This document shows positions 60,498 through 62,902 of a stretch of DNA of 64,000 bases, one piece after another. Numbering within the stretch: the stretch's first letter is position 1; every line of letters starts with the position of its first letter. The DNA is from an uncultured Clostridia bacterium. Its GTDB lineage: Bacteria > Bacillota > Clostridia > Oscillospirales > Acutalibacteraceae. The translations under genes and the position numbers were made by a program. The notes below the pieces were generated by a model, which saw only the letters and a list, made by a program, of their open reading frames with translations, had not been told where the DNA came from and searched no databases. The DNA lies in assembly GCA_944380765.1 (NCBI GenBank), contig CALWIO010000002.1, positions 62,001-126,000 on the forward strand, in the 5' to 3' direction.

Positions 60498-61373
60498 ATG
60501 AAAATTACTGACGGAATAATTATAAAAGGAATCGGTGGCTTCTATTATGTAGAGGCCGCCGATAAAGTATATGAGTGCAAGGCGAGGGGAGTTTTCCGTA
60601 AAAACAAAATTACCCCTCTTGTCGGCGACAGAGCGGACATAACAATAAACGATAACGCGGAAAACACCATTGACGGAATTTCAGAGCGTAAAAATTCGCT
60701 TAACCGTCCTCCGGTTGCAAATATTGACAATCTGTTGATTGTGGTTTCAACAGTTGAACCTAAGCCGAACTTCCTTGTGATTGACAAATTAACGGCAGTT
60801 GCGGAAAACAAGCGTATCGAGCCGGTTATCATTATTTCTAAAAATGATTTAAAAGACGGAAGCGGCATATCGGATATTTACCGTAAAGCTGGATTTATGG
60901 TTTTCTCATCAAACGACGAATCTGACCTTTTAAAAATCAAGTCGGTTATGAAGGGTAAAATCAACGCTTTAACAGGCAATTCCGGAGTGGGAAAGTCAAC
61001 GCTTATCAACCGCCTTGAACCCTCTGTAAAGCTTTCCACAGGCGAAATAAGCGCAAAACTCGGAAGGGGACGGCACACCACCCGGCAGGCTGAGCTTTTT
61101 AAGATTTGCTCAGGCTATGTTATTGATACGCCCGGCTTTTCGTCCTTTGAGCTTGGCGGTGACGAAGCTATAAAAAAAGACGACCTGCAATACTGTTTCA
61201 GAGAGTTTTTGCCTTTTATAGGAACTTGCAGGTTTTCAACTTGTTCGCATGTGAAAGATAAAGGCTGTAAAATATGTGAAGCGGTTGAAGAAGGCTTAAT
61301 TGAAAAATCAAGGCATGAAAACTATTGCGTCTTGTATGAACAGGCGAAGAACTTAAAGGAGTGGGAGCTGTGA
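60498..61373 (+). CDS. rsgA: Ribosome small subunit-dependent GTPase A
   Basis: RsgA helps late 30S subunit maturation. The 291-residue protein has an N-terminal OB fold, a circularly permuted GTPase with G4 ISKNDL before G1 GNSGVGKST and G3 DTPGFSSF, and a C-terminal zinc motif (Cys in CRFSTCSHVKDKGC). It starts 3 bases after prkC without a strong ribosome site and overlaps the thiN start by 4 bases. In Bacillus rpe lies between rsgA and thiN; here it is absent. Confidence 0.95.
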   Translation: MKITDGIIIKGIGGFYYVEAADKVYECKARGVFRKNKITPLVGDRADITINDNAENTIDGISERKNSLNRPPVANIDNLLIVVSTVEPKPNFLVIDKLTAVAENKRIEPVIIISKNDLKDGSGISDIYRKAGFMVFSSNDESDLLKIKSVMKGKINALTGNSGVGKSTLINRLEPSVKLSTGEISAKLGRGRHTTRQAELFKICSGYVIDTPGFSSFELGGDEAIKKDDLQYCFREFLPFIGTCRFSTCSHVKDKGCKICEAVEEGLIEKSRHENYCVLYEQAKNLKEWEL

Positions 61374-61996
61374 ATAATCGCTGTGTAATAGTCGGCGGCG
61401 GCGATTGCTCCCCGGGATTTTTAAAGTCGGTACTGCGCGGTGACGATTACATTATCTGCGCCGACAGCGGCTATGACAAACTTAAAGAATGTGATTTTTC
61501 GCCCTCGCTTATTGTCGGCGATTTTGATTCTCTTGTTTCCGATTTACCTCGTAACATACCGGTTTTGCGCCTGCCCGTTGAAAAAGATGTAACCGACACC
61601 GAATCGGCGCTGAATGAAGGAATTAAAAAAGGCTTTACTTCTTTTCTTATCCTCGGCGGCACCGGCGGAAGATTTGAGCATACTTACGCTAATATTATTC
61701 TTCTCGCTCAAACATGTATGCGTGGATATCGCTGTGTAATGGCGGATGAAAAACACAATTTTTACTGCATACATAATTCCCGCATTGAACTTGCTCGCCG
61801 TGAAAGCACGCAGATTTCCGTGTTCGCTTTCGGCGAAGAGGCTTTAAATGTCTCCGAAACGGGATTTCATTATGAGCTGAACGGCTATAATTTATCTCCC
61901 TTTGAACTCTTGGGTGTGAGCAACGATATAACCGCCGAAAAAGGCGTTATTTCGGTGGAAAAAGGAACTTTGATTGTGATAGAAACACAGTTGTAA
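61370..61996 (+). CDS. thiN: Thiamine diphosphokinase
   Basis: ThiN makes thiamine diphosphate from thiamine and ATP. The 208-residue protein shows the family motifs CADSGYD, GDFDSL, KDVTDTESAL and GGTGGRFEHT. The start is GTG 61370, overlapping the rsgA stop (GTGA), with AAAGGAG (61356-61362) upstream; the GTG at 61361 lies inside that site. No thi-box riboswitch is seen. Confidence 0.95.
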   Translation: MNNRCVIVGGGDCSPGFLKSVLRGDDYIICADSGYDKLKECDFSPSLIVGDFDSLVSDLPRNIPVLRLPVEKDVTDTESALNEGIKKGFTSFLILGGTGGRFEHTYANIILLAQTCMRGYRCVMADEKHNFYCIHNSRIELARRESTQISVFAFGEEALNVSETGFHYELNGYNLSPFELLGVSNDITAEKGVISVEKGTLIVIETQL

Positions 61997-62018
61997 CACA
62001 AAACAGTCCCCGGCGTAT

Positions 62019-62037
62019 AATGTATTGAAAATACATT
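62019..62037. repeat. Perfect inverted repeat upstream of the small genes
   Basis: AATGTATT (62019-62026) and AATACATT (62030-62037) form an eight-base perfect inverted repeat with a GAA spacer. A TATAAT (62016-62021) overlaps it, with a poor -35 (TTGTAA, 19 bases upstream). It could be an operator over a weak promoter for the two small genes; nothing else shows its role. Confidence 0.4.
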
Positions 62038-62052
62038 TGCGGGGGCGTTTTT

Positions 62053-62199
62053 ATGTGCAGGCAAAGCGATAAAAAGGGGATAATTTTTGTAGCGCTGGGG
62101 CTTGGGCTTATTGTGTCGCTTATTTTCCCAACGAAATACATTATTATTTTTCTCGCTTTGGCGCTTGTTGCCAGCGGAATAGCGCTCTGCAAAGCATAG
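62053..62199 (+). CDS. Small two-helix membrane protein
   Basis: This 48-codon frame has GGGGG (62041-62045) seven bases before its ATG. It encodes a charged start (CRQSDKKG) followed by two hydrophobic segments (about 9-25 and 29-46) separated by PTK. It ends 12 bases before spoVM, and the two genes share the same spacing and wording of ribosome site, GGGGGC then T residues. The place between thiN and spoVM suggests a sporulation role, but I do not recognise the family. Confidence 0.7.
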   Translation: MCRQSDKKGIIFVALGLGLIVSLIFPTKYIIIFLALALVASGIALCKA

Positions 62200-62211
62200 G
62201 GGGCATTTTTT

Positions 62212-62298
62212 ATGAAAGTTGTTGTAGTAAAAAGTCCGAAGATTGTAAGCGGTATTCTCAGAATGTTTTTCGGCATAAAGAAGGAAAATGCCGGCTGA
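62212..62298 (+). CDS. spoVM: Stage V sporulation protein SpoVM
   Basis: SpoVM is a tiny amphipathic peptide that marks the convex forespore membrane and anchors the coat protein SpoIVA. The 28-residue product has the same features as Bacillus SpoVM (26 residues): a short start of K and hydrophobic residues, a proline at position 9 (KSPKIV), then GILRMFFG matching the GIVRAMLG amphipathic helix, and a basic end. AGGGGG (62198-62203) precedes the ATG. The position just after thiN is the same as in Bacillus. Gene callers often miss it because of its size. Confidence 0.92.
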   Translation: MKVVVVKSPKIVSGILRMFFGIKKENAG

Positions 62299-62306
62299 AA
62301 CAAAAA

Positions 62307-62339
62307 GCAAAAAGCCCGGCGCAAAGCCGGGTTTTTTGC
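62307..62339. terminator. Bidirectional terminator between spoVM and rbr
   Basis: A 14-base-pair stem with one G-T pair (62307-62320 with 62326-62339), loop GCAAA, has a GC-rich core and A/T-rich ends. It ends the long plus-strand run and also faces the converging rubrerythrin gene. Confidence 0.92.
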
Positions 62340-62353
62340 AATGCAGTAATATT

Positions 62354-62902
62354 TTATTTTGAGAAGTATCTGTTGAGAAGTCCCTCAAAAGCTTTGCCGT
62401 GACGAGCTTCATCTCTTGCCATTTCGTGAACTGTGTCATGAATGGCGTCAAGATTTTCTTCCTTAGCGCGCTTAGCAAGCTCAAACTTACCGAGAGTAGC
62501 GCCGTTTTCAGCCTCAACTCTCATTTCAAGGTTTTTCTTTGTGCTGTCTGTTACAACCTCACCGAGAAGTTCGGCAAATTTCGCGGCATGCTCAGCCTCT
62601 TCATAAGCCGCTTTTTCCCAGTAAAGGCCGATTTCGGGATAACCTTCTCTGTGGGCGACTCTCGCCATGGCAAGATACATTCCCACTTCCGTGCACTCAC
62701 CTGTGAAGTTAGCGCGGAGACCTTCGAGAATGTCCTCGGGAACGCCTTTCGCAACGCCTACAACATGCTCGGCAGCCCAAGTTTTTGCGCTCTCTTCCAC
62801 AACGCTGAACTTAGAGCCGGGAACGCCGCACTGAGGGCATTTTTCAGGGGGATTTTCTCCTTCGTAAACATATCCGCAAACAGGACAAACAAATTTTTTC
62901 AT
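62354..62902 (-). CDS. Reverse rubrerythrin (N-terminal rubredoxin domain)
   Basis: The 182-residue protein carries the rubredoxin iron site first (C6-x-x-C9 and C22-x-x-C25) and the ferritin-like di-iron domain second, with EC-E motifs [11 protein letters not shown] and DEARHG. This order is opposite to classical rubrerythrin and is the form that in Clostridium acts as a peroxide reductase. It helps strict anaerobes survive air. GGAGGAAA precedes the start. It follows the PerR-like gene by 31 bases on the same strand, so the two are probably one regulated unit. Confidence 0.93.

Follow-up and report, generated by a model that had tools for sequence, protein, structure and literature searches.

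Described spoVM loci

In Bacillus subtilis, Ile6 of SpoVM and Gly486 of SpoIVA have been tied to binding (PMC5607322), and Lys2, Ile6 and Ile15 of SpoVM are linked to its cortex and SpoIVA functions. Pro9 has been reported as the only completely conserved residue of SpoVM (PMC5607322), and its replacement in P9A abolishes curvature choice, as reviewed (PMC12004969). The usual neighbour of spoVM is rpmB (PMC5607322). Galperin et al. 2012 found spoVM in all Bacilli and in some but not all clostridia, counted 70 cases, clostridia included, in which the gene had been omitted from annotation, and left open whether the clostridia that seemed to lack it have distant versions (PMC3533761).

In C. difficile, CD25622 precedes spoVM and is cotranscribed with it; it encodes a 50-aa protein of unknown function, and spoVM expression is sigma-E-dependent (Ribis et al. 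2017, PMC5607322). CD25622 has been described as apparently unique to the Peptostreptococcaceae, and its insertion mutants resembled spoVM mutants, with polar effects likely (PMC5607322). The spoVM mutants lose heat resistance only about 3- to 4-fold, and SpoIVA of C. difficile has Asn at the position of Gly486 (PMC5607322). Literature searches returned only this study for CD25622 and, for small membrane proteins encoded before spoVM, no example other than that of C. difficile.

The spoVM gene and its neighbours

The following features were found at the spoVM locus of the window, i.e. the whole 64-kb stretch of DNA that was analysed.

60498..61373, forward strand: rsgA, ribosome small subunit-dependent GTPase A (TIGR00157, 213 bits, cut-off 100)
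61361..61996, forward strand: thiN, thiamine diphosphokinase, start codon uncertain (TIGR01378, 143.6 bits, cut-off 76.4)
61994..62024, forward strand: promoter-like element TAACA-N15-CGTATAATGTA, with a similar element in most of 31 congeneric upstream regions
62000..62051, forward strand: inverted repeat that can form a hairpin; it overlaps both the -10-like box and the ribosome site of ORF48
62053..62199, forward strand: ORF48, predicted two-helix membrane microprotein of 48 codons, first gene of a putative ORF48-spoVM unit
62198..62203, forward strand: Shine-Dalgarno sequence AGGGGG of spoVM, 8 nt before the ATG and overlapping the end of ORF48
62212..62298, forward strand: spoVM, 28 codons plus TGA (NCBIfam NF033436 match, dN/dS, genus-wide presence)
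62315..62337, forward strand: terminator-like hairpin after spoVM, CCCGGC-GCAAA-GCCGGG followed by TTTTTT (read from the sequence)
62354..62902, reverse strand: rubrerythrin-like gene, convergent and downstream of spoVM (Pfam PF02915 and PF21349 above cut-off)

The ATG to TGA frame at 62212-62298 of the forward strand translates to MKVVVVKSPKIVSGILRMFFGIKKENAG. It scored 50 bits (E 2.2e-13) against NF033436 (SpoVM_broad, an equivalog model with a cut-off of 31 bits) and covers profile positions 1-26 of 26, whereas no Pfam model matched. The only PDB sequence match was 2mvh, SpoVM of B. subtilis; in this single-sequence search residues 1-22 aligned without gaps at E 0.51, the query being too short for significance by itself. 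The ribosome site, proline, GILRMFFG segment and basic residues that the note had read from the sequence are all present, with the proline at residue 9, GILRMFFG at residues 14-21 and basic residues at K2, K7, K10, R17, K23 and K24. A purine-rich site is found at an equal distance before spoVM in the congeners. With 28 aa and Pro9, the protein has the features of short SpoVM proteins (<30 aa with Pro9), and the genome (1.73 Mb in 31 contigs, completeness 99.8%) has a single copy of the gene.

Compared with SpoVM of B. subtilis (2mvh; NF033436), which has 26 residues, the overall identity is 35%. In brief, Lys2, Pro9, Ile15 and Arg17 are kept, K7, K10, G14 and G21 are also identical, and of the three residues linked to cortex and SpoIVA functions K2 and I15 are identical while residue 6 is Val, a conservative change from Ile6. 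The hydrophobic moment of the segment after Pro9 is similar in the two proteins (0.54 in the window copy, 0.49 in 2mvh), and 6% of shuffled sequences reach 0.54.

The rsgA and thiN genes precede spoVM in the window, as they also do in B. subtilis. The earlier note had placed spoVM right after thiN; this does not hold, as thiN stops at 61996 and ORF48 intervenes, its stop lying 12 nt ahead of spoVM. The locus thus differs from that of B. subtilis: a membrane gene of 48 codons separates thiN from spoVM, and a rubrerythrin-like gene rather than rpmB lies downstream; rpmB is not adjacent to spoVM here. The stem at 62315..62337 can also be read as a terminator on the reverse strand.

Conservation and selection

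The earlier note had named a lack of this frame in close relatives as evidence that would speak against the gene. We found spoVM in 36 of the 39 genomes of the genus. Every one of the 27 genomes of good quality (completeness of 90% or more, contamination of 5% or less) has it, and the genomes lacking a match, three in number, are 68-88% complete. The pooled dN/dS over ten close congener pairs is 0.053, and SpoVM is under strong purifying selection among the congeners. The gene order RsgA-ThiN-ORF48-SpoVM recurs in most of them, and among the SpoVM loci long enough to include the upstream genes almost all retain it.

With an order-specific alignment built here, 87 of the order's 117 genomes gave a SpoVM match (E up to 1e-3). 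As in the catalogue of Galperin et al. 2012, which covers Bacilli and most Clostridia, these are short genes that annotation misses. NF033436 captures the window copy, yet misses many relatives: it is narrow at class level, matching 8 of 99 genomes, and a broader SpoVM alignment matched 114 of 291. The gene had been called overlooked, which is fair in so far as spoVM is often left unannotated (PMC3533761) but not for the window copy itself, since NF033436 already recognises it.

Based on the family model, conservation, codon-level selection, gene neighbourhood and the presence of SpoIVA, SipL and Spo0A, the frame is almost certainly a bona fide spoVM and a true orthologue, as the earlier note had proposed. 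It adds one member to a known family and is ordinary in itself.

Natural variation at Pro9

Within the genus, Pro9 is found in 28 of 36 SpoVM proteins, seven have the proline at residue 8 and one has Ser9. The Ser9 protein, KVIVFKSSKLLGGFLR, is encoded in genome G006 (locus L062, at about 1528 of the reverse strand), and ORF48 is still directly upstream. The seven others (L065-L070, L091) are one residue shorter before the proline (LKPKMLGAVLR).

Seven more genomes of the order lack Pro9, namely G062 and G130 (KGSKFW), G142 (KSTGFI), G100 (KGSGFL), G072 (KANGFW), G050 (KPGKIL) and G150 (KPGKFV). These are weaker SpoVM matches (E about 1e-4 to 1e-6), and six of the seven have an ORF48-like neighbour. 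G062, G130, G142 and G100 (L167-L169, L171) belong to sister genera of the same family; their proteins have no Pro near residue 9 and a Gly at residue 8 or 10, and an ORF48-like gene lies beside them. Across family and order, the place of Pro9 is taken by a Gly at residue 8 or 10 or a Pro at residue 8, and some proteins have no helix breaker. The suggestion that helix changes in the window copy may inform curvature sensing applies to these relatives, in which Pro9 is lost or shifted, rather than to the window copy, which is a conservative variant that retains Pro9.

ORF48, a conserved neighbour of spoVM

ORF48 translates to MCRQSDKKGIIFVALGLGLIVSLIFPTKYIIIFLALALVASGIALCKA. No Pfam or NCBIfam model scored above its cut-off against this protein, nor against ten diverse relatives. 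The dN/dS over ten close congener pairs is 0.082. AlphaFold2, run with 17 congeners, predicts helices at residues 6-23 and 28-47 around Pro26 (mean pLDDT 74, pTM 0.44). The gap between ORF48 and spoVM is approximately 10-15 nt in most congeners, and in five of them (G009, G010, G011, G018 and G006) ORF48 adjoins spoVM although thiN is not on the contig that carries the pair. No homologues of ORF48 were found on plasmids. ORF48 is a strongly supported conserved neighbour of spoVM that is in no library searched.

The locus resembles CD25622-spoVM of C. difficile in having a gene of about 50 codons that immediately precedes spoVM in the same orientation, and in the SpoIVA-SipL system. Homology between ORF48 and CD25622, its positional counterpart, is a lead.

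To follow the pairing in the order, we counted upstream ORFs that encode 38-110 aa and have two or more hydrophobic segments. Such an ORF ends within 30, 60 and 250 nt of spoVM in 55, 69 and 76 of the 87 genomes, respectively, against a background of 0.4%, 0.6% and 2.1% at random positions in the same loci. In the alignment, helix 1 contains a Gly in 64 of 76 proteins, a Pro turn is seen in 70 of the 74 that have a residue at that position, and 71 of 76 have a Gly close to the end. The pattern proposed for an ORF48 family has a Gly-rich first helix, a Pro turn and a second helix with Gly near its end. It should be noted that hydrophobic microproteins of this kind align with low information.

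An ORF48 profile made from the order alone was used to search every frame of 62 spoVM loci, all of them from other orders; these cover approximately 2.7-3 kb around each spoVM, so that the search concerns linked copies only. It matched 27 frames from 17 families at E below 1e-4, every one directly upstream of spoVM (27/27), one of them at a distance of 28 nt. The best of approximately 5,900 shuffled control frames reached 1e-3. By the same test, several SpoVM-bearing families have no ORF48-like ORF (most loci of families f32, f51, f37 and f41). Searches of 117 whole genomes (E up to 1e-6) returned six matches, five of which, including that in genome G111, adjoin a SpoVM-like ORF; the match in genome G125 has no such ORF adjoining.

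In genome G111 (L099, about 1640-1754), a divergent SpoVM-like ORF, MRVLVLRTPRFLSRILRLFYAKKAKKEL, which the SpoVM profile had missed, was found because an ORF48 homologue precedes it.

The fresher observation at this locus is thus not spoVM itself but the ORF48-type gene directly before it across much of the Clostridia. We suggest that a family of this kind would have been missed because the genes have only about 50 codons and because the sole described case was thought to be specific to the Peptostreptococcaceae.

Control region upstream of ORF48

The promoter-like element at 61994..62024 has the general form TAACA-N15-CRTATARTG in the congeners. The window holds one exact match, with 0.08 expected at up to two mismatches. 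The element also reads as sigma-A-like (GTAACA-N17-TATAAT, 10 of 12 positions). The region upstream of sipL carries, by eye, a more sigma-E-like sequence, GTCATAA...CATATAAA. An assignment of the ORF48 element to sigma-E was dropped, since it is unlike the sipL upstream sequence and fits sigma-A equally well; judged from its letters, the CATA-type -10 can alternatively be read as that of a mother-cell promoter.

The inverted repeat at 62000..62051 folds with a minimum free energy of -20.4 kcal/mol (z -3.7). Over 31 congeners the mean folding z is -3.3, several of them not being significant, and two-sided compensatory change was seen in 3 of 16 pairs (12 sequences). The repeat occurs in most congeners, and in most genomes it also takes in the ORF48 ribosome site. 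A simple terminator between thiN and ORF48 was set aside as an explanation of the hairpin, since a T-run follows in part of the genus only. The repeat may insulate ORF48-spoVM from thiN read-through; we speculate that read-through RNA would hide the ORF48 ribosome site and that RNA started inside the repeat would not.

Based on the short gaps, the promoter-like element before ORF48 and the terminator-like hairpin after spoVM, we regard ORF48 and spoVM as a putative two-gene unit.

Sporulation partners and proposed mechanism

The genome encodes Spo0A and SpoIVA (717 bits, cut-off 459.9), and SipL domains are encoded just before SpoIVA. SpoIVA has 492 aa, and its residue 486 is Gly, assuming a gapless alignment over the full 492-position profile; this is the residue of B. 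subtilis, whereas C. difficile has Asn. A PDB search with SpoIVA gave no match. The best sigma-E candidate (L084, G000:C4:13797-14474) falls slightly short of its NCBIfam cut-off (321 against 348.6 bits), although the remaining sporulation regulators that were looked for are all encoded. With Spo0A, SpoIVA, SipL and a sigma-E-like factor in the genome, the machinery served by SpoVM is therefore present.

By orthology, we infer that the mother cell would make SpoVM as the bacterium sporulates. The amphipathic helix of the protein (approximately residues 10-23, behind the Pro9 kink) would insert into the convex outer forespore membrane, and SpoVM would then recruit the SpoIVA ATPase to start the basement layer of the coat. 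The gene would be expressed as the second of the ORF48-spoVM unit, which follows rsgA-thiN. ORF48 would form a helix-Pro-helix membrane hairpin that is kept with spoVM. Most likely it is cotranscribed with spoVM, and at the outer forespore membrane it would act either on SpoVM itself or next to it. In our judgement, a joint role of ORF48 and SpoVM has an even chance of being correct.

Alternative explanations

The small genome and an ORF far below usual length limits would fit a spoVM frame that had arisen by chance, or one left to decay after its lineage gave up sporulation. This is very improbable, given the NF033436 score far above cut-off, the dN/dS of 0.05, the universal presence in good-quality congeners and the retention of Spo0A, SpoIVA and SipL, and we rejected a chance ORF or pseudogene on model score, selection and conservation. 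A genuine SpoVM could still be largely dispensable, which is the situation in C. difficile, and coat assembly would then depend on SpoIVA-SipL. We hold this to be quite possible, at somewhat less than even odds. The clostridial pair SipL-SpoIVA is present with adjacent genes, loss of spoVM in C. difficile lowers heat resistance only about 3- to 4-fold (PMC5607322), and Pro9, essential for curvature choice in B. subtilis, has been lost in some relatives. Set against this, the dN/dS of 0.05 indicates strong sequence constraint in the genus, and C. difficile has Asn where the SpoIVA of this genome has Gly486.

The SpoVM reading may also be right with ORF48 being a mere passenger, a membrane protein with a separate role, for instance in the vegetative context of rsgA-thiN. 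The fit of the promoter-like element to sigma-A hexamers agrees with this, as do the SpoVM families without such an ORF and the finding in C. difficile that mutants with an insertion in the upstream gene do not differ in phenotype from those lacking only spoVM (PMC5607322). A passenger is nevertheless unlikely, since the pair stays together off the thiN contig in five congeners, all of the profile matches below 1e-4 from other orders lie directly upstream of spoVM, and five of the six whole-genome matches adjoin a SpoVM-like ORF.

A broader reading takes in both ORF48 and the Pro9 variants, and we assign it a probability of about 0.5. ORF48 would represent an undescribed, class-wide family of two-helix membrane microproteins, an ancestral clostridial companion working with SpoVM at the outer forespore membrane, e.g. 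by helping it to insert, persist or be handed over to SpoIVA, and the natural replacements of Pro9 in the family and order would be ready-made curvature-sensing variants. Counted against the SpoVM mechanism and the ORF48-spoVM unit proposed above are that the upstream element is not clearly a sigma-E site, that the sigma-E candidate is below cut-off, that rpmB does not adjoin spoVM, that SpoVM is largely dispensable in C. difficile and that insertion in the upstream gene adds no effect there.

Implications for clostridial coat assembly

With the natural Pro9 variants, the need for the Pro kink in curvature sensing can be tested directly. If a membrane microprotein is tied to SpoVM across many clostridial families, clostridial coat assembly may have a partner that work on B. 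subtilis has not revealed. Such a partner might help to explain why B. subtilis depends so much on SpoVM and C. difficile so little.
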